Shown here: piece after piece, positions 18,852 through 63,828 of the stretch
How positions within the stretch are numbered: the stretch's first letter is position 1
Layout of the letters: each line of letters opens with the position of its first letter
Program-made: the position numbers and the translations under genes
Notes under the pieces: model-generated
Seen by the model: only the letters and a program-made list of their open reading frames with translations
The model's database searches: none
Told to the model about the DNA's origin: nothing
Assembly (NCBI RefSeq): GCF_003046475.1
Contig: NZ_PZZZ01000002.1
Span: forward strand, 558,001-622,000
DNA: 64,000 nucleotides
Origin: Mycoplana dimorpha
GTDB taxonomy: Bacteria > Pseudomonadota > Alphaproteobacteria > Rhizobiales > Rhizobiaceae
Reading direction: 5' to 3'

Positions 18852-19113
18852 AAACATGACGCCACGCGTCGGAATGGGAAATCGCACCGCTTCCCAGCCA
18901 GGCATGATGCCGTACCGCCCGGACCGGTTTCGACCCGGTATCAAGCTTCAACTGAAATCGACCATGGACCGGCAAGCGGTTGCCATCATGCGCCGAGCGA
19001 TCGGAGCAGCGTGGATGATCGTCCCCGCATGACGCTGGCACCCTCTCCATGGCGAAGTCACCGGTCCGGCCCGCGACAGCGGCCGCCGGACCGCAGCGGA
19101 TGTAGGGACCAAC

Positions 19114-44982: not shown

Positions 44983-45689
44983 AGAAGCTCGCACTCGCCA
45001 TGATGGCAACTTCGCTGCTGTCTGGCTGCGCCAACCAGGCCGTCAGGGAAATCGGCCGGGCGCCATCGATGAGCCCGATCGGCAGCGGCCTGCAATACGC
45101 GCAGACGCCGCAGATGGCTTTGTATCCAAAGCAGCCGGACAACCGCATGGCCGGCTATTCGATCTGGAGTGATGCGCAGGCGAACCTCTTCAGGGACTTG
45201 CGCGCGATCAACGTCGGCGACGTGTTGACCGTCAAGATCCGCCTGAACGATGAGGCCGCCTTCGACAACAAGACCAACCGCAGCCGGGTAAACAAGAGCG
45301 GCATGAACTTCGGCATCAGCGGGCAGACGCAAGACGCCAGTATCGACACCAAGGGAGACCTCAACTACGGCTCCTCGACCAGCACCAAGGGCGATGGCAA
45401 GACCGAGCGCTCGGAGCGCTTGAGCCTTATGGTCGCAGCCGTCGTCACCGGCGTGCTCGAGAACGGCAACCTCTTGATCAGCGGTTCGCAGGAGGTACGG
45501 GTCAACCACGAACTCCGCATCCTCAATGTCGCCGGCATCGTGCGGCCGCAGGATGTGGATTCGAACAACCGGATCTCCTACGAGAAGATTGCCGAGGCGC
45601 GCATCTCTTACGGCGGCCGCGGCCGCTTGACCGAGGTGCAGCAGCCGCCATGGGGTCAGCAGGTCGTGGACCTCTTCTCGCCGATCTGA
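44979..45689 (+). CDS. flgH: Flagellar L-ring lipoprotein FlgH
   Basis: 236 residues. Lipoprotein signal with lipobox LLSGC (Cys19). The conserved SIWSDAQANLFRDLRAINVGDVLTVKI and ENGNLLISGSQEVRVNHELRILNVAGIVRPQDVDSNNRISYEKIAEARISYGGRG segments identify FlgH, the outer-membrane ring. Confidence 0.96.
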   Translation: MKKLALAMMATSLLSGCANQAVREIGRAPSMSPIGSGLQYAQTPQMALYPKQPDNRMAGYSIWSDAQANLFRDLRAINVGDVLTVKIRLNDEAAFDNKTNRSRVNKSGMNFGISGQTQDASIDTKGDLNYGSSTSTKGDGKTERSERLSLMVAAVVTGVLENGNLLISGSQEVRVNHELRILNVAGIVRPQDVDSNNRISYEKIAEARISYGGRGRLTEVQQPPWGQQVVDLFSPI

Positions 45690-45722
45690 CCGGCGTCTAC
45701 GAATCAGGAGCGGAACACGGAC

Positions 45723-46232
45723 ATGGCGGACGTAGACCAGGGCGGCGAGGCACCGAAGAAGGCCTCGCCCATCGTCACCATCGCGATCGTCGCGGGCCTC
45801 AGCGTCGTCGCCGCTGGCGGCGGCTGGTTCGTCGGCAACATGCTGGCGCCGGCCCCTGCCGAAGCCGAGGCGACGGCCGTCGCGCCGGAAGGCGAACAGG
45901 CCGGCAAGACGGGTAAGGACGGCGAAATCCCGCGCCTTGCAACCGAAGAGAACGGCATCATCGCGCTGGAGCCCTTCACCAGCAATCTCGCCTATCCGGC
46001 CGACAACCTCGTGCGCATGGAAGTGGCGCTCGCCTTTAAGGGCGCGCCGGACCCGGTGCTCGCCGAGGCGATCCACCAGGACATCATGGCCTACATGCGC
46101 ACGGTGTCATTGCAGCAGATCCAAGGGCCGCGCGGCTTCCAATATCTCCGGGACGACCTGAAGGAGCGGGTTGACCTTCGCTCTGAAGGCCGCGTAACGA
46201 ACATCATGTTCCGGACCTTTGTGATCGAATGA
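45723..46232 (+). CDS. fliL: Flagellar stator-associated protein FliL
   Basis: 169 residues. One N-terminal membrane helix (about 17-38, VTIAIVAGLSVVAAGGGWFVGNML), an Ala/Glu linker, and the periplasmic SPFH-like domain (FTSNLAYPADNLVRMEVALAF...LRDDLKERVDLRSEGRVTNIMFRTFVIE). It supports stator function. Overlaps fliP by ATGA. Confidence 0.93.
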   Translation: MADVDQGGEAPKKASPIVTIAIVAGLSVVAAGGGWFVGNMLAPAPAEAEATAVAPEGEQAGKTGKDGEIPRLATEENGIIALEPFTSNLAYPADNLVRMEVALAFKGAPDPVLAEAIHQDIMAYMRTVSLQQIQGPRGFQYLRDDLKERVDLRSEGRVTNIMFRTFVIE

Positions 46233-46969
46233 TTCGATTTCTGACGACGACCTTCGTTGCCCTGCTGGCGATGACCACCATTGCATTTGCGCAGCAGACG
46301 CCGGCGCAGCTTCTCAACACGCCGATCGACGGCTCCGTCGCCTCCTGGATCATCCGCACCTTCGGGCTCTTGACCGTCCTCTCGGTAGCGCCGGGCATCC
46401 TGATCATGGTGACGAGCTTCCCGCGTTTCGTGATCGCCTTTGCGATCCTGCGCTCCGGCATGGGGCTGGCGACGACGCCGTCGAACATGATCCTCGTCAG
46501 CCTTGCGCTGTTCATGACCTTCTACGTGATGGCGCCGACCTTCGACCGTGCCTGGGAGAGCGGTGTCCAGCCGTTGCTCGCCAACCAGATCGACGAGACG
46601 GAGGCGGCCAAGCGCGTCGCCGAGCCGTTCCGCGCCTTCATGACCGCCAACACCCGCGACAAGGACCTGCAGCTCTTTGTCTCGCTCGCCGAGGAGCGCG
46701 GGCAGACGGTGGTCGAGGACGACAAGGTCGACCTGCGCGCCGTCATCCCGGCCTTCATGATTTCGGAGATCCGCCGCGGCTTCGAAATCGGCTTCCTGGT
46801 CGTTCTGCCCTTCCTCGTCATCGACCTGATCGTCGCCACCATCACCATGGCGATGGGCATGATGATGCTGCCGCCGACGACGATCTCGCTGCCCTTCAAG
46901 ATCTTGTTCTTCGTGCTGATCGACGGCTGGAACCTGCTGGTCGGCAGCCTGGTGCGCTCGTTCAGCTGA
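46229..46969 (+). CDS. fliP: Flagellar type III export gate protein FliP
   Basis: 246 residues. Cleavable signal peptide, then four membrane helices, with the family segments LLTVLSVAPGILIMVTSFPRFVIAFAILRSGMGLATTPSNMILVSLALFMTFYVMAPTFD and GFLVVLPFLVIDLIVATITMAMGMMMLPP. Core of the export pore. Last gene of the flgB unit; fliQ, fliR and flhA are not in the window. Confidence 0.96.
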   Translation: MIRFLTTTFVALLAMTTIAFAQQTPAQLLNTPIDGSVASWIIRTFGLLTVLSVAPGILIMVTSFPRFVIAFAILRSGMGLATTPSNMILVSLALFMTFYVMAPTFDRAWESGVQPLLANQIDETEAAKRVAEPFRAFMTANTRDKDLQLFVSLAEERGQTVVEDDKVDLRAVIPAFMISEIRRGFEIGFLVVLPFLVIDLIVATITMAMGMMMLPPTTISLPFKILFFVLIDGWNLLVGSLVRSFS

Positions 46970-47216
46970 TTTTTCGTGTCATCCGGTCGCCGTTTTCGCT
47001 CCTCCGGCACGCCCACTGGCCATGCAGGAGGCGTTGACTCTTGATCGTGGTTAATTTGCTTGGTTTATACTTTGTTGCACGGAGCATTCCATTAACTATG
47101 GCCCTGCTCGGCTCGAAATCTGCCTGCCACCATTAAGAACCTGGCAAGAATCCGAACCTAGTTTCGGTCGCACACGACAGGTTTGGTTTCCGAAATGTTA
47201 TCTCAGGAGCCAAGTG

Positions 47217-47295
47217 GCATGAGGCCGATCTGTAGTAGCCGGTAGTATTAAGAAGTCCGGTATGTCCCACCAGTAGTATTCCGTAATAAGGGACA
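47217..47295 (+). promoter_or_regulatory. flaA leader: GCATGAGGC and TCCGGTATGTCCC boxes with Shine-Dalgarno hairpin
   Basis: GCATGAGGC at 47217-47225, TCCGGTATGTCCC at 47256-47268, and GGGACA at 47290-47295. TGTCCC (47263-47268) pairs perfectly with GGGACA, which overlaps the ribosome site AAGGGA five bases before the ATG. The direct repeat GTAGTATT (47242-47249, 47273-47280) has its second copy in the loop. The gap 46970-47300 holds no gene, and its promoter was not located with confidence. Confidence 0.6.
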
Positions 47296-47300
47296 GTAAC

Positions 47301-48491
47301 ATGACCAGCATCCTGACCAACGCCAACGCCATGGCAGCGCTTTCGACGCTGCGCTCCATCTCCTCCAACATGGAAGACACGCAGAGCCGTATTTCGTCCG
47401 GTCTGCGCGTCGGTCAAGCCGCCGACAACGCCGCCTACTGGTCGATCGCCACGACCATGCGTTCGGACAACATGGCGCTTTCCGCCGTGCAGGACGCCCT
47501 CGGTCTCGGCGCCGCGAAGGTCGACACCGCCTATGCCGGTATGGAATCGGCCATTGAAGTCGTCAAGGAAATCAAGGCCAAGCTCGTTGCCGCCACCGAA
47601 GACGGCGTCGATAAGTCCAAGATCCAGGAAGAGATCAACCAGCTGAAGGATCAGCTGACCTCGATCGCCTCGGCCGCTTCGTTCTCGGGCGAAAACTGGC
47701 TGCAGTCCGACCTGAGCGTTTCGACCACCAAGTCCGTCGTGGCCTCCTTCGTTCGCGACGACCAGGGCAACGTCTCCGTCAAGAAGGTCAACTACGCGCT
47801 GAACGGCGGCAACGTGCTGTTCGACACCTCGGGCGGCAACCTGGGCATTCTCGACAAGACCTACAATGTCTCCCAGAAGAGCGTCACCGTATCGGTCAAC
47901 ACCGATGGCGTTTCCTCCGAGCACACCGTTGCTGCTTACTCGGTCGACGACCTGATTGCACAGAACGCCACCTTCACGACCAACACGGTCGGTGGCAAGA
48001 CGACCCAGCTCGCTGACGTCGGTGGTGCCTACTACGTCAAGATCGACGACAACAACTGGGTCGCAGCTGTCGACGTCACGGGCACCGGCCAGGAAGCGGT
48101 TCACGACGAAGGCGGCACCTACTACGGTATCGATACCAGCGCTGCCCCGGCCACCAACGTGTCCGCTCCGAGCTCGATCAAGGACATCAATATCGTCGGC
48201 ATGAACCCTGCTCAGCTCGACGCCCTGATCTCCGGCGTTGACGCGGCCCTTACCGACATGACGAGCGCTGCTGCCGACCTTGGTTCGATCGGCATGCGTA
48301 TCGACATGCAGGAAGAGTTCGTCAAGAAGCTGAGCGAATCGATCGACAAGGGTATCGGTCGCCTCGTCGACGCCGACATGAACGAAGAGTCCACCCGCCT
48401 CAAGGCTCTGCAGACGCAGCAGCAGCTGGCCATCCAGGCTCTGTCGATCGCCAACTCCGACTCGCAGAACGTTCTGTCGCTCTTCCGTTAA
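47301..48491 (+). CDS. flaA: Flagellin FlaA
   Basis: 396 residues. N-terminal D0/D1 (MTSILTNANAMAALSTLRSISSNMEDTQSRISSGLRVGQAADNAAYWSIATTMRSDNMALSAVQDALGLGAAKVDTAYAGMESAIEVVKEIKAKL), a variable surface domain (about 145-285), and C-terminal D1/D0 ending in SIANSDSQNVLSLFR. Principal filament subunit in rhizobia with complex flagella. Codons are highly biased, as expected for an abundant protein. Nearly the same as FlaB over most of its length. Confidence 0.95.
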   Translation: MTSILTNANAMAALSTLRSISSNMEDTQSRISSGLRVGQAADNAAYWSIATTMRSDNMALSAVQDALGLGAAKVDTAYAGMESAIEVVKEIKAKLVAATEDGVDKSKIQEEINQLKDQLTSIASAASFSGENWLQSDLSVSTTKSVVASFVRDDQGNVSVKKVNYALNGGNVLFDTSGGNLGILDKTYNVSQKSVTVSVNTDGVSSEHTVAAYSVDDLIAQNATFTTNTVGGKTTQLADVGGAYYVKIDDNNWVAAVDVTGTGQEAVHDEGGTYYGIDTSAAPATNVSAPSSIKDINIVGMNPAQLDALISGVDAALTDMTSAAADLGSIGMRIDMQEEFVKKLSESIDKGIGRLVDADMNEESTRLKALQTQQQLAIQALSIANSDSQNVLSLFR

Positions 48492-48525
48492 TCGGACGGC
48501 ACATTCGTGGCATGACGGCAAACGA

Positions 48526-48562
48526 GCCGCACCCGGAAACGGGTGCGGCTTCATCATTCTTT
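48526..48562 (+). terminator. Intrinsic terminator of flaA
   Basis: Perfect 9-bp stem GCCGCACCC (48526-48534) with GGGTGCGGC (48541-48549), 6-nt loop, then a T-rich TTCATCATTCTTT. flaB is therefore transcribed separately. Confidence 0.8.
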
Positions 48563-48650
48563 AAGCATCTTCTGGCACGCGCGCGCACACGCGAAAGGTG
48601 CAAAATAAAATCACTGGCTGTGCCATTTGGCGGGTCCGTTTAGTGCTTCA

Positions 48651-48790
48651 TTAACCAACCATGGGTTAGCTAAGCCTCATCGAGACGGCGAGTTAACCTT
48701 GAAAATTAACGGGTTAGCAAGCATGACGCTGTGCGCCGGCTCCCGGTACGGTCCGGAATGTCCCTTCACACATCAGCCATTCAAGGGGCA
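48651..48790 (+). promoter_or_regulatory. flaB control region: TTAACC boxes, GGGTTAGC repeats, leader hairpin
   Basis: TTAACC at 48651 and 48693, TTAA at 48706, and a direct repeat GGGTTAGC at 48663-48670 and 48711-48718. Then GCATGACGC (48721-48729), TCCGGAATGTCCC (48752-48764), and the stem TGTCCCTT (48759-48766) with AAGGGGCA (48783-48790; one G-U pair), which covers the ribosome site AAGGGG before ATG 48799. Confidence 0.6.
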
Positions 48791-48798
48791 CCCACGAA

Positions 48799-49989
48799 AT
48801 GACTAGCATTCTGACTAACGTCGCAGCCATGGCTGCGCTTTCGACGCTGCGCGGAATCGCCTCCGGCATGGAAGAGACCCAGGCTCGCGTATCCTCCGGT
48901 CTGCGCGTCGGTCAAGCTGCCGACAACGCCGCCTACTGGTCGATCGCCACGACCATGCGTTCGGACAACATGGCGCTTTCCGCCGTGCAGGACGCTCTCG
49001 GTCTCGGCGCCGCGAAGGTCGATACCGCCTATGCCGGTATGGAATCGGCCATTGAAGTCGTCAAGGAAATCAAGGCCAAGCTCGTTGCCGCCACCGAAGA
49101 CGGCGTCGACAAGTCCAAGATCCAGGAAGAAATCGACCAGTTGAAGGATCAGCTGACCTCGATCGCTGCTGCCGCTTCGTTCTCGGGCGAGAACTGGCTG
49201 CAGTCCGACCTGAGCGTTTCGACCACCAAGTCCGTCGTGGCCTCCTTCGTTCGCGACGACAAGGGCCATGTCTCCGTCAAGAAGGTCGACTACGCACTGA
49301 CCGGCGGCAACGTGCTGTTCGACACCTCGGGCAACAACCTGGGTATCCTCGACAAGCAATACAACGTCTCGCAGAAGAGCGTCACCGTATCGGTCAACAC
49401 CGATGGCGTTTCCTCCGAACACACCGTTGCTGCTTACTCGGTCGACGAACTGATTGCACAGAACGCCACCTTCACGACCAACACGGTCGGTGGCAAGACG
49501 ACCCAGCTCGCTGACGTAGCAGGTACCTTCTACGTCAAGATCGACGACAACAACTGGGTCGAAGCTGTCGACGTCACGGGCACCGGACAGGAAGCGGTTC
49601 ACGACGAAGGCGGCACCTACTACGGTATCGATACCGCCGCTGCGCCGGCCACCAATATTGCCGCACCGTTTTCCGTCGCCACCATCAACATCATCGGCAT
49701 TTCGAACGCCAACCTCGACGCCCTGATCTCCGGCGTTGATGCGGCCCTCACCGACATGACGAGCGCTGCCGCCGACCTCGGCTCGATCGGCATGCGCATC
49801 GACATGCAGGAAGAGTTCGTCAAGAAGCTCAGCGAATCGATCGACTCCGGTATCGGCCGTCTCGTCGACGCCGACATGAACGAAGAGTCGACCCGCCTCA
49901 AGGCCCTGCAGACCCAGCAGCAGCTGGGCATCCAGGCGCTGTCGATCGCCAACTCCGCTTCGGAAAACATCCTGACGCTCTTCCGTTAA
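48799..49989 (+). CDS. flaB: Flagellin FlaB
   Basis: 396 residues, the same length as FlaA and almost the same sequence, including most of the variable domain. Differences cluster at the N-terminal 30 residues, around 255-300 (TAAAPATNIAAPFSVATINIIGISNANLDALISG) and at the C-terminus (SIANSASENILTLFR). Secondary filament subunit. Own promoter region and own terminator. Confidence 0.94.
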   Translation: MTSILTNVAAMAALSTLRGIASGMEETQARVSSGLRVGQAADNAAYWSIATTMRSDNMALSAVQDALGLGAAKVDTAYAGMESAIEVVKEIKAKLVAATEDGVDKSKIQEEIDQLKDQLTSIAAAASFSGENWLQSDLSVSTTKSVVASFVRDDKGHVSVKKVDYALTGGNVLFDTSGNNLGILDKQYNVSQKSVTVSVNTDGVSSEHTVAAYSVDELIAQNATFTTNTVGGKTTQLADVAGTFYVKIDDNNWVEAVDVTGTGQEAVHDEGGTYYGIDTAAAPATNIAAPFSVATINIIGISNANLDALISGVDAALTDMTSAAADLGSIGMRIDMQEEFVKKLSESIDSGIGRLVDADMNEESTRLKALQTQQQLGIQALSIANSASENILTLFR

Positions 49990-50016
49990 TCGTTAAGATA
50001 TTTCACGAAATCGAGA

Positions 50017-50039
50017 GCCGCCCCCCAAGGGCGGCTTTT
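50017..50039 (+). terminator. Intrinsic terminator of flaB
   Basis: 7-bp stem GCCGCCC (50017-50023) with GGGCGGC (50029-50035), 5-nt loop, then TTTT. Confidence 0.8.
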
Positions 50040-50077
50040 GCGCATTGTTAAACTTCATAAACGCTCTTTAAGATTTG

Positions 50078-50210
50078 TTAACCATCGCCGGCTTAACTGC
50101 GCTCATCGTAACGATGGGTTAACCAAGACGAAGCAGCGGTTAACGGCATCAGGCCAGACCATCGTGCCCGGCGCTTCCGGGATGTCCCTCATCTAGCCAA
50201 TCCAGGGGCA
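50078..50210 (+). promoter_or_regulatory. flaD control region: TTAACC boxes and leader hairpin
   Basis: TTAACCAT at 50078-50085, the palindrome GGTTAACC at 50117-50124, and GGTTAACG around 50139. Then GCATCAGGC (50146-50154), TCCGGGATGTCCC (50176-50188), and the stem TGTCCCT (50183-50189) with AGGGGCA (50204-50210; one G-U pair), which covers the ribosome site 7 nt before ATG 50218. Confidence 0.6.
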
Positions 50211-50217
50211 AATCATC

Positions 50218-51462
50218 ATGACCAGCATTTTGACCAACGTCGCAGCGATGGCTGCACTGCAGACCCTCCGCTCGATCGACACGAAAATGGAAGAAACGCA
50301 GTCGCGGGTCTCCAGTGGTCTCCGCGTGGGCACCGCCTCCGACAATGCTGCCTATTGGTCGATCGCGACCACCATGCGCTCTGACAATATGGCCTTGTCC
50401 GCCGTTCAGGACGCTCTCGGGCTGGGCGCCGCCAAGGTCGACACAGCCTATGCTGCAATGCAGACAGCTGTCGAAGTCGTGAAGGAAATCAAAGCGAAGC
50501 TGGTCGCCGCGACGGAAGAAGGGGTTGATCGATCCAAGATTCAGGAAGAAATTGAACAGCTGCAGGCGCAACTGCGGACGATTGCCTCGGCTGCAAGCTT
50601 CTCCGGCGAAAATTGGCTTCAGGCCGACATAACCACTCCTGCGACAGTAGTGACGAAAAGCGTTGTCGGCTCTTTCGTGCGAGCAGCCGATGGAAGCGTC
50701 TCGGTCAAGAAGATCAACTATAATCTCGGTGCAGACACCGTTCTTTTCGATACGTCTGGAAACAAAAACGGCATCCTCGACAGAGTATTCAATGTTTCCC
50801 AGAACGCCGTGACGCTAACCGTAAATACGAGCGGCGTCGGCGCGGAGCACACGGTTGCGGCATATACGATCGACCAGCTGATCGCCGCAGGAGCGACCTT
50901 CACCACCAACACCGTCGGAACCACAACGACGCAGCTTGCGCAAGCGACCGCTGACCTGATCGTCGGCGGGGTTACGGTCATCACCAACGGCGACTACTTC
51001 GTTCAGGTAAGCGGCAACACCTGGGCGCGGGCTGTCGACGTGACCGGAACGGGCCAGGAGGCGCTCCATTACGACGGTGCCGCGATCTACTACGGCGTTG
51101 ACACCAGCAACACCCCGGCAATCGACATCCCGGCACCGGAGTCGGTTGATACGGTAGACATTACACTTCTGACCAATAATGAACTCGACGTCATGGTGAG
51201 CGCCGTTGACAAGGCTCTCGAGGTTGTCATTAGCGCCAGTGCCGACCTTGGTTCGATCGCAATGCGCATCGAAATGCAGGAAAATTTCGTCGCGAGCCTC
51301 ACAGATTCCATCGACTCCGGCATCGGCCGCCTCGTCGATGCGGACATGAACGAAGAGTCGACGCGACTCAAGGCGCTGCAAACGCAGCAGCAACTGGCCA
51401 TCCAGTCGCTGTCGATCGCCAACACCAGTTCGGAGAACGTTCTCCAGCTCTTCCGTCAGTAA
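50218..51462 (+). CDS. flaD: Flagellin FlaD
   Basis: 414 residues. Same D0/D1 ends as FlaA/FlaB, but a more divergent variable domain with extra residues (about 240-260, TADLIVGGVTVITNGDYFVQV). Codon choice is visibly less biased than in flaA and flaB (more AT-ending codons), so a lower expression level is likely. Position and length fit flaD of S. meliloti. Confidence 0.9.
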   Translation: MTSILTNVAAMAALQTLRSIDTKMEETQSRVSSGLRVGTASDNAAYWSIATTMRSDNMALSAVQDALGLGAAKVDTAYAAMQTAVEVVKEIKAKLVAATEEGVDRSKIQEEIEQLQAQLRTIASAASFSGENWLQADITTPATVVTKSVVGSFVRAADGSVSVKKINYNLGADTVLFDTSGNKNGILDRVFNVSQNAVTLTVNTSGVGAEHTVAAYTIDQLIAAGATFTTNTVGTTTTQLAQATADLIVGGVTVITNGDYFVQVSGNTWARAVDVTGTGQEALHYDGAAIYYGVDTSNTPAIDIPAPESVDTVDITLLTNNELDVMVSAVDKALEVVISASADLGSIAMRIEMQENFVASLTDSIDSGIGRLVDADMNEESTRLKALQTQQQLAIQSLSIANTSSENVLQLFRQ

Positions 51463-51507
51463 GCGGCGTCCCGGGCTAGGGGGCGACTTCGTCCCGCCCT
51501 GAAGGAG

Positions 51508-51548
51508 AAAATCCGCGGTTCCGCAAGGGACCGCGGATTTTGCGTTTG
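51508..51548 (+). terminator. Intrinsic terminator of flaD
   Basis: ATCCGCGGT (51511-51519) pairs with ACCGCGGAT (51530-51538). AAA before it and TTT after it extend the stem, followed by TTTTGCGTTT. Confidence 0.8.
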
Positions 51549-51657
51549 TCATGGTGAACGACAACCGTGCTCATCCACTCGCCCGCCTTGCGCCAAGCTT
51601 GCCGGATTGTCGAATATTTACAAAACCGTCACAAAGCCTAATAGAGCCTTAATGGCG

Positions 51658-51780
51658 TTAACCATTCGTTAACCATTTCTCGTTAACCCTTCGTTAGTAG
51701 AACGACGGACTGTCGCCCAGGGCAAACGGTTGGCGGCAGCGCGCATGACGCAGCTCCGCCGTTGCCGGTTGCCACTCCGG
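51658..51780 (+). promoter_or_regulatory. flaC control region: triple TTAACC array
   Basis: TTAACCAT at 51658-51665, TTAACCAT at 51669-51676 and TTAACC at 51683-51688. The first two give TTAA-N7-TTAA, the ideal CtrA spacing. GCATGACGC (51743-51751) and TCCGG (51776-51780) match the other flagellin leaders, but the TGTCCC hairpin arm is missing here. Confidence 0.5.
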
Positions 51781-51813
51781 CCTGAAGCAGATTTTCCAGC
51801 CAAGGCGTTTCAG

Positions 51814-52809
51814 ATGTCCAGCATATTGACCAATGCGGCCGCCATGGCCGCGCTTCAGACTCTGCGTTCCATAGACAGAAGCCTCGAGACCACCCAGGCT
51901 CGAGTCTCCTCCGGCATGCGCGTCGAGACCGCCGCCGACAACGCGGCCTACTGGTCGATCGCCACGACGATGCGCTCCGACAACCGCGCACTTTCCACCG
52001 TCCAGGATGCACTCGGTCTCGGCGCCGCGAAGGTCGATACCGCCTACGCCGCCATGGAAAGCGCCATCGAGGTGGTCAAAGAGATCAAGGCGAAGCTGGT
52101 CGCCGCCTACGGCGTCGGCGTGGACCGCTCGAAGATCCAGGAAGAAATCGAACAACTGCAGCAGCAGTTGACCAGCATCTCCGAATCGGCCTCCTTCTCC
52201 GGCGAGAATTGGCTGCAGGAGAAGATAAGCGACGGCGGAACGCCGCCGGCGCCGGTCACCGTCAACAAGCAGGTGGTGGCCTCCTTCATCCGCAATTCTT
52301 CCGGCAACGTCGCAGTGACGACGGTGGATTATCCGCTCAACGGCAGCTCCGTCCTGTTCGACCTCAGTGGCGGCAAGCTCGGGATCCTCGACAAGGAAGC
52401 GACGGCGGGTGCGGCGCCCGGAACGGCACTCGGCTTTTCCGTCTCGACCCTCGACATCAAGGACCTCGCAGCCGTCGCAGGCGTGCTGGACACGGCGCTG
52501 CCGCCGGGGCCGCACACCCCCGAGGACGCGCTCGACGCCATGGTCCAGTTCGTCGATTTGCAGCTCGAAGCAATGACGAGCGCCGCCTCGAGCCTCGGCT
52601 CGATCCAGAGCCGCATCGACATGCAGGAAAGTTTCGTCTCCACCCTGATCGACGTGATCGACAAGGGCATCGGCCGTCTTGTGGACGCGGACATGAACGA
52701 GGAGTCGACCCGTCTGAAGGCCCTGCAGACGCAGCAGCAACTCGGCATCCAGTCGCTGTCGATCGCCAACACCAATTCCGAGAACATCCTGCAGCTCTTC
52801 CGGCAGTAG
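51814..52809 (+). CDS. flaC: Flagellin FlaC (short variable domain)
   Basis: 331 residues from ATG 51814. The D0/D1 ends match the other three (MSSILTNAAAMAALQTLRSIDRSLETTQARVSSGMRVETAADNAAYWSIATTMRSDNRALSTVQDALGLGAAKVDTAYAAMESAIEVVKEIKAKLV ... SIANTNSENILQLFRQ), but the central domain lacks about 65-80 residues. It corresponds to flaC of S. meliloti, also the shortest of the set. Probably a minor filament component. Confidence 0.92.
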   Translation: MSSILTNAAAMAALQTLRSIDRSLETTQARVSSGMRVETAADNAAYWSIATTMRSDNRALSTVQDALGLGAAKVDTAYAAMESAIEVVKEIKAKLVAAYGVGVDRSKIQEEIEQLQQQLTSISESASFSGENWLQEKISDGGTPPAPVTVNKQVVASFIRNSSGNVAVTTVDYPLNGSSVLFDLSGGKLGILDKEATAGAAPGTALGFSVSTLDIKDLAAVAGVLDTALPPGPHTPEDALDAMVQFVDLQLEAMTSAASSLGSIQSRIDMQESFVSTLIDVIDKGIGRLVDADMNEESTRLKALQTQQQLGIQSLSIANTNSENILQLFRQ

Positions 52810-53139
52810 TGCCGATCGGGCACCGCTGAAGGTCGGTGACCTTCGGCGCAAGCATACCGGCGCGTCATGGACATCGGCGCGGCGGGACGCTTGGGCCGCG
52901 CGATTTGCCCTGGCGCGGCCCAAGACCTTCATCCTCGCACAAGTTTGGCGATCTAGTCTCGAAGGCTGCAGTGGGATTGTGCGCCAGCCGGCGGGCGTCG
53001 GACGCGCGGATCCCCGAAAAGATAAGGCAGCGGCGTTGAAGGATGGACATGGGTCGAGGCACGGAACAGGGCGATGCCGGGTGGGGCACTGCGGTGCGGC
53101 AGCCGCGCCGGCGGCAGGCGCAGTGAACGGAAAAGCACC
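52810..53139 (+). other. Non-coding stretch between flaC and the FliH-like gene
   Basis: Contains only an interrupted hairpin (GAAGGTC/GACCTTC, 52828-52844) without a T-run, which may end flaC transcription poorly. No gene, repeat or clear promoter is visible otherwise. Confidence 0.4.
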
Positions 53140-63037: not shown

Positions 63038-63385
63038 ATGTACCAGTTCTCATACGTCGAGATCATGGAGGATGGCGTCGAGACCTCCAGAAGCCGCGAG
63101 CGGCAGGTTCTCGACCGTTCGATCGAGCTTCTGCGCAAGGCCCAGGCGGCCAAGGACTTCGGCCGGGACGCCATCGAGGCGACCTACTACACGCGGCGGG
63201 TCTGGATACGGTTCGTCGAGGATCTCGGCAATCCGGAAAACCAGCTCGACCAGGAGCTGCGCGCCAATCTCATTTCAATCGCCCTATGGATCTTGGGGGA
63301 GGTCGAACGGATCCGCAAACGCGAATCGACCAATTTCCAGGGGATCATCGACATAACCACCATCATCAGGGATGGCATAAAATGA
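63038..63385 (+). CDS. flaF: Flagellin biosynthesis regulator FlaF
   Basis: 115 residues, all-helical ([95 protein letters not shown]). FlaF promotes flagellin synthesis and acts with FlbT in alphaproteobacteria. Overlaps flbT by ATGA. Confidence 0.93.
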
Positions 63386-63828
63386 AAAGCACACTGCGGA
63401 TCTCACTGAAGTCCGGCGAGCGCATCTTCGTCAACGGGGCGGTATTGCGGGTCGACCGGAAGGTGGCTCTCGAATTCCTAAACGACGTCACGTTCCTGCT
63501 GGAGAACCACGTGCTCCAGCCCGAGCAGGCGACGACGCCTTTGCGCCAGCTGTACTTCATCGCGCAGATGATCCTCATGAATCCGGAAGGCGCCGAGCAG
63601 TCGACGGCAATCTTCCGCAAGTCGGTGATCATGCTGCTCAACTGCTTCAAGAACGAGGAGGTGCTGGCGGAGCTGAAGCGCATCGACGGCCTCGTAACCC
63701 AGGGCCGCGCCTTCGAAGCGCTGAAGGCGATCCGGGCCCTTTATCCGATCGAGGATCGCATCCTCAACGATCACGAACTGACGCCTGCGACGGTGGAGCA
63801 CATCCGCAAGGAGATCGCCATATGGTAA
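63382..63828 (+). CDS. flbT: Flagellin mRNA regulator FlbT
   Basis: 148 residues from ATG 63382. [68 protein letters not shown] is diagnostic. In Caulobacter FlbT binds the 5' leader of flagellin mRNA and controls its stability; in Brucella and rhizobia it is linked to flagellin expression. The flagellin leaders in this window carry a shared hairpin that may be its target. Confidence 0.94.

Follow-up and report, generated by a model that had tools for sequence, protein, structure and literature searches.

The window analysed here, a stretch of 64,000 nucleotides (nt) of the Mycoplana dimorpha genome (Rhizobiaceae; NZ_PZZZ01000002.1, positions 558,001 to 622,000), contains the flagellin genes flaA, flaB, flaD and flaC and, downstream of them, the flagellar genes flaF and flbT. 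Reading and comparing the sequences, we found good support for a predicted structure common to the messenger RNA (mRNA) leaders of flaA, flaB and flaD, which would fold into a hairpin P1 (CCGG-loop-CCGG) with a second hairpin, P2 (UGUCCC-loop-GGGRCA), next to it. Across genomes, the putative P2 is nearly exclusive to flagellin genes and goes with one type of the protein FlbT.

The leaders of flaA, flaB and flaD

All features described below are on the forward strand. Upstream of flaA (47301..48491; PF00669, PF00700), a promoter-like GCATGA element (47217..47222) lies 22 nt 5′ of P1 (47239..47260), in which CCGG 47239-47242 pairs with CCGG 47257-47260 across a loop of 14 nt and which can be extended by G47238-U47261. 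P2 follows at 47263..47295, where UGUCCC 47263-47268 pairs with GGGACA 47290-47295 and overlaps AAGGG, which resembles a Shine-Dalgarno (SD) sequence. The flaB gene (48799..49989), 90% identical to flaA in the alignment, is preceded by GCATGA at 48721..48726, by P1 at 48743..48756 (CCGG 48743-48746 with CCGG 48753-48756) and by P2 at 48759..48790 (UGUCCCUU 48759-48766 with AAGGGGCA 48783-48790); when this leader is folded alone by energy, CCGG 48736-48739 pairs with 48753-48756 instead of 48743-48746. For flaD (50218..51462; 71% identity to flaA in the alignment), P1 is at 50168..50180 (CCGG 50168-50171 with CCGG 50177-50180, extended by C50167-G50181) and P2 at 50183..50210 (UGUCCCU 50183-50189 with AGGGGCA 50204-50210).

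The initial annotation had described, in these three leaders, a TCCGG box starting at 47256, 48752 and 50176 followed by an arm pairing with the SD stretch. Direct reading of the sequence confirmed the box positions and the P2 arms, as well as the P2 loops of 21, 16 and 14 nt, the spacings of 5, 8 and 7 nt between P2 and the ATGs (47301, 48799 and 50218), and the U-A pair of flaA where flaB and flaD have U-G. The box is indeed shared by the three leaders, but it is actually the 3′ arm of P1. Likewise, flaC was rightly said to lack the P2 arm, but it has kept P1.

The pattern GCATSA-CCGG-CCGG occurs five times in the window, upstream of a chemotaxis operon, flaA, flaB, flaD and flaC. The corresponding GCATGA-N15/16-CCGG elements (18902-18939, 47217-47262, 48721-48758, 50146-50182 and 51743-51781; GCATCA in the flaD version) are of a kind kept across the order. 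Leaders of the flaA type show ATGA-N15-ACCGGTAA upstream, with a spacing that we take to resemble that of a sigma-28 promoter. One paper states, in the passages concerned, that the class has no known sigma factor specific to the flagellum (PMC12826043). Exact copies of TCCGGNATGTCCC number three in the window, in the flaA, flaB and flaD leaders, and four in the whole 4.59 Mb genome; the fourth is in other surroundings, with a P-type ATPase-like frame recognised by eye only.

Conservation and rebuilding of the two stems

The distant leaders are decisive for the predicted structure. In these, P1 is rebuilt with other letters, as CCAGC/GCUGG (L197), GCCGA/UCGGC (L314, L318, L321), UGCCG/CGGCA (L316, L317, L320), GUCGG/CCGAC (L300, L301, L325) or GCUGC/GCAGC (L323), and P2 is rebuilt as UGUUCC/GGAACA (L212, L213) or as UGUCUUUC/GAAAGACG (UGUCUU/AAGACG), ending at the start codon (L314, L316-L318, L320, L321). 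Among the 40,320 assignments of arms for eight P1 types, only the true one gives 38 of 40 pairs, and for six P2 types two of 720 assignments, the true one included, give 36 of 36 pairs; both sets of types were hand-picked after inspection and hence selected. An automatic swap control went against P1 (3.2 pairs with the own arm vs 3.6 with a CCGG arm), many divergent leaders being mis-anchored at a wrong AUG. Since P1 is rebuilt with other letters, a transcription start upstream of both hairpins is suggested; a start-site paper on Sinorhizobium gives, in the part available, CtrA motifs for flaA, flaC and flaD without positions. In family f169, to which the six leaders with the UGUCUUUC/GAAAGACG stem belong, P2 extends up to the base before the start codon, and in most of them an SD-like AGGA sits at the top of or above the P2 stem.

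The predicted structure is also supported by A4, an alignment of 33 sequences hand-chosen for diversity, in which two core P2 pairs vary UA/UG/CG and CG/UG/UA and are never broken. Its covariation score of 0.152 was reached by none of 500 shuffles and stood above all slid controls; five pairs showed changes on both sides, a number reached by 137 of 500 shuffles. In an alignment of 139 distinct leaders made with the covariance model, and leaning to it, 92.6% of cells pair and 14 cells have changed on both sides, and none of 500 shuffles reached either figure. The initial annotation would have been refuted by a lack of compensatory changes in homologous leaders; such changes have kept the stem in distant genomes and in A4, and they are slight among close relatives. 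The SD region lies inside a conserved predicted stem, and the comparison supports a covarying hairpin at the SD of flagellin mRNAs, found together with one FlbT type.

Folding predictions were consistent with this structure. RNAalifold predicted both stems unprompted. Energy folding from 11 nt after the start of GCATGA reproduced the two stems exactly in flaA and flaD; in flaB it gave P2, but it built P1 with a different CCGG, or replaced it once coding sequence was added. Averaged over the SD region, the probability of being unpaired was 0.35 for flaA, 0.44 for flaB, 0.33 for flaD and 0.61 for flaC, the start codon of the latter being predicted to pair with coding sequence. The minimum-energy fold includes P2 in 157 and P1 in 152 of 188 leaders, and P2, with 6-8 pairs at the SD, has a median energy of -8.8 kcal/mol at 37 °C and -10.6 kcal/mol at 28 °C. 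A stem covering the SD with a score of at least 13 was found in 93% of 224 leaders vs 36% of base-shuffled ones.

The leader is widespread. In the 121 genomes of the family, 79 contain at least one exact copy of TCCGGNATGTCCC, some surely by chance; a reversed-pattern control gave 16 copies in total, and many true copies are spaced by 1.1-1.5 kb, as tandem flagellin genes would be. From 78 named loci we obtained 155 distinct flagellin leaders, 127 of which could be anchored, and in 121 of these 127 P2 had five or more contiguous pairs. The covariance model, trained on 39 leaders, matched in the own genome only the flaA, flaB and flaD leaders (expectation values (E) of 2.6e-8, 6.7e-7 and 9.2e-5; next 0.065); because these three belong to the training set, their matches are uninformative and only the lack of further ones counts. 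The weak own-genome matches L140-L143 coincide with a palindrome (GTCATGCCGGACTTGATCCGGCATCC or close to it) that recurs at several places and may represent a family of interspersed palindromic repeats.

In the order, the model matched (E<=0.001) in 55 of 297 genomes and 24 of 117 genera, and a flagellin gene was present at 73 of the 75 loci examined, own genome included (exceptions L199 and L202), with at least one locus examined for each matching genome; that the flagellin stands directly behind the match was seen in the leaders read and was not counted. A class-wide search of 387 genomes gave three strong matches, all within this order. A wider spread in the class was rejected: 18 other genomes had one match each (E 0.0016-0.05, L116-L133), about the chance level, and simple residue patterns found no flagellin directly after these loci, the pattern at L116 lying about 1.3 kb downstream. 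Both searches were run with Infernal's stricter filters, the model E-values are rough, and close relatives make the counts non-independent. Literature searches limited to open-licence papers brought up no title or abstract describing the two-hairpin flagellin leader.

In 100 of 118 leaders (121 minus 3 having no exact upstream CCGG), GCATSA stands 21 or 22 nt ahead of the first CCGG; the P1 loop varies from 4 to 15 nt, and P2 adjoins P1, its 3′ arm including part of the SD, 3-9 nt from the start codon. In 86 of 181 leaders, the nucleotide just behind the second CCGG is able to pair with the one just ahead of the first CCGG; base frequencies alone, taking no account of relatedness, predict 51.6. 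In this set, 19 leaders have no CCGG/CCGG; about eight (L027, L030, L032, L046, L052, L064, L067, L078) look mis-anchored and are uninformative on P1, and L047, L195 and L206 have only partial P1 stems. Two other explanations of the leader were rejected. A leader peptide starting at the AUG of AUGUCCC has no conserved reading frame in 192 leaders, 55 frames ending ahead of the start codon, 42 at it and 26 beyond it, and 69 being open past the stretch. For a CsrA-type leader, the A(N)GGA motif is not found in every leader; in L056 at 627, which carries TCCGGT and AAGGGGCA, no GGA is seen by eye.

P2 at flagellins and one type of FlbT

P1 also occurs alone. The flaC flagellin (51814..52809; flagellin family match) has a leader (51743..51780) with GCATGA at 51743, P1 at 51765-51768 / 51777-51780 and no P2, and so has the mcp/che operon (18902..18938; GCATGA 18902, P1 18924-18927 / 18935-18938), the mcp and che genes having been named by eye from the list of open reading frames. 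A search with the chemotaxis leader gave matches in 8 of 121 genomes, and five of the seven other loci (L252, L254, L255, L257, L258) have P1 without P2; at L252 and L258 the gene behind P1 is recognisably, by eye, the same as in the window. Among flagellin leaders having no anchored P2, 14 of 20 fit a loose P1 pattern, although two of the 14 (L041, L203) seem to carry a P2 missed by the script. Since P1 is kept without P2 at flaC, the chemotaxis operon and other leaders, the two hairpins are separable; P2 was seen only at flagellins. In genus g73, leaders L303, L304, L306 and L310 have a perfect P1 (UACCGG/CCGGUA) followed by AUGUC and no P2, while a rebuilt P2 is present in two other genomes of this genus (L212, L213).

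The candidate trans-acting factor is encoded by flbT (63382..63828; PF07378, 1e-41), next to flaF (63038..63385; PF07309, 2.1e-31); both genes are downstream of the flagellins, as the initial annotation placed them. The flbT start is inside the flaF stop codon (ATGA overlap, 63382-63385), which suggests coupled translation of both regulators. No significant relative of FlbT was found among solved structures, and weak Sm_like matches were obtained for 8 of 20 members (best E 0.0072). A likeness of its N-terminus to CsrA, seen by eye, was rejected (hhalign probability 3.4% vs one CsrA).

PF07378 was found in 222 of the 297 genomes of the order, including all 55 with a model match. With the window FlbT as query, the matches listed formed a first group of 39-100% identity (E<=3.3e-22, 86 genomes) and a second of 22-33% (E>=1e-10), with a wide gap between them; several genomes (e.g., G425, G710, G767) carry one FlbT of each type. 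Of the 86 genomes whose FlbT is of the window's type, 54 had a model match, vs one of the 136 other FlbT genomes (Fisher p 9e-28, relatedness ignored), and no flagellin stands at this sole match (G605, L202). Match and window-type FlbT are on one contig, 12-34 kb apart, in 51 of those 54 genomes. Genera g113, g431 and g453 mix one-FlbT and two-FlbT genomes and have matches only in the latter; G674 (g113) has two FlbT and no match. Rhizobiaceae are said to have only a 'lateral' flagellum, and certain other genera both, in the part of PMC6406911 consulted.

The 32 window-type genomes having no match were searched again at E<=0.5, and the flagellins of 26 were fetched and their leaders read by eye. 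In eleven (G738, G722, G544, G091, G561, G663, G591, G643, G702, G719, G695) a P2 with five or more pairs lies close to the start, ten are ambiguous by eye (G735, G595, G666, G704, G684, G646, G525, G536, G683, G712), and no flagellin was found in G608. This reading covered window-type genomes only. Of the 136 other FlbT genomes, 36 were searched at E<=0.5 and gave ten loci, none with a recognised flagellin, the recognition pattern being one that missed the flagellins right behind the matches at L211, L215 and L216.

A possible lock on flagellin translation

We propose that the two-hairpin leader is off by default through P2, and that it is recognised, and opened or bypassed, by a protein of the flagellar cluster, most likely the FlbT of its own type; we give this proposal about an even chance. 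As P2 would hold part of the SD, default translation would be low. A protein of the same cluster, most likely FlbT, would recognise the leader and open or bypass P2, so that flagellin would be translated whenever FlbT is unhindered; FlaF may work against it. An activating FlbT agrees with the restriction of the putatively P2-locked leader, in what was seen, to a single FlbT type. We infer three things here: a lowering of translation by P2 in the cell, the role of FlbT as the factor, and its activating sign. In the Bradyrhizobium lateral system, FlbT is reported to induce LafA1 and LafA2 at translation (PMC8429497, passages seen), and it is described as an activator in Brucella in an excerpt of PMC9812332.

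Several observations speak against this proposal. The co-occurrence is explained equally well by inheritance of the whole flagellar system, and any protein of the flagellar cluster would fit as well as FlbT, which represses in Caulobacter. Among the 32 genomes searched again, four have P1 only (G073, G622, G596, G705) and six neither stem by eye (G776, G687, G784, G771, G676, G782). The AUG after P1 is invariant, which suggests sequence recognition besides pairing, and a transcription start inside P1 would preclude its formation. As to the structure, the fold z-score is modest (mean -0.99, 188 leaders), and in the 139-leader alignment two pairs have both-side changes, not above shuffles (436 of 500), and a control slid by +3 has a covariation of 0.095, above the 0.082 of the structure. 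Among near relatives covariation is weak, and the count of pairs changed on both sides is not above shuffles.

Conversely, FlbT, alone or with a flagellin partner like FljJ, might stabilise P2, causing repression and faster decay until secretion opens, with flaC, which lacks P2, as the early partner. We rate this reading as unlikely, though it has some support: in the passages available, FlbT and FljJ co-repress in Caulobacter (PMC7591256) and FlbT promotes decay of its targets there (PMC4347634), and the missing P2 of flaC would agree with it. Against it, FlbT is presented as activating in Brucella and in the lateral system of Bradyrhizobium (PMC8429497, PMC9812332, PMC4347634, each in part), and the P2 model (E<=0.001) matched no flagellin among the 136 genomes whose only FlbT is of the other type; the predicted pairing of the flaC start codon also makes its escape uncertain. 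Somewhat less probable still, P1 and P2 might mainly shield flagellin mRNAs, which are abundant, from decay at the 5′ end, the SD overlap being a side effect that ribosomes overcome unaided. Although the keeping of P1 alone on the chemotaxis operon and flaC would suit such a role, P2 stays beside the start despite changes of loop and spacing, and in the f169 leaders (L314, L316-L318, L320, L321) it is rebuilt right up to the start codon.

The short stem at the SD, with the energies given above, would also suit a switch operated by temperature or a small RNA, independent of FlbT. We consider this improbable: an Rfam covariance-model scan of 45000-53000 gave no match (E up to 5), thermometers included, and no small-RNA search was made. 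Lastly, the conserved letters could be DNA sites of a class III promoter and their pairing incidental. GCATGA is fixed at 21-22 nt from the first CCGG, as in a bipartite promoter, and this upstream part is shared with the chemotaxis promoter; but the position of the second CCGG is variable (4-15 nt), and other families form the two stems from different letters, which leaves this explanation very improbable.

The proposed activation of P2-locked leaders by FlbT can be compared with known systems. Anderson and Gober reportedly showed in 2000 that FlbT binds the Caulobacter fljK leader. This leader is like those of the window as a flagellin 5′ untranslated region with FlbT and post-transcriptional control, and unlike our proposal in that FlbT represses there. 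The lateral LafA1/LafA2 of Bradyrhizobium (Mongiardini 2017, as told in PMC8429497) belong to the same kind of flagellar system; the passages seen mention no leader RNA structure, and leader L073 of a Bradyrhizobium sp. flagellin, presumably a lateral one, has the full P1-P2 structure. CsrA-FliW, which controls the flaA leader of Campylobacter and the hag leader of Bacillus (PMC4894983, in part), likewise places flagellin translation under an assembly-tied protein, a different one from FlbT. The initial annotation further supposed that filament subunits are made only after hook completion. This supposition was not supported: a review describes fliC production in Brucella melitensis as independent of basal body and hook (PMC8781033, part seen). 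Brucella would be of the lateral type, judging from Ochrobactrum, listed with a lateral flagellum in a legend of PMC6406911.

The sections seen of a 2015 review (PMC4347634) list no recognition motif for FlbT and call its mechanism unresolved, FlbT repressing in Caulobacter, where its binding promotes mRNA decay, and being proposed as an activator in Brucella. A joint reading of these opposite signs, which we offer as speculative and rather unlikely, would make the lateral FlbT a dedicated activator docking on P1 and opening P2; flaC, with P1 and no P2, would be made first and take the role of FljJ, the co-regulator of Caulobacter. P1 would then mark class III mRNAs of flagellum and chemotaxis, and P2 would be a lock for flagellins only. 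A leader that is rebuilt across families and marks the flagellins of one FlbT type is a concrete and testable cis element, and it may be a reason for the opposite signs of FlbT.

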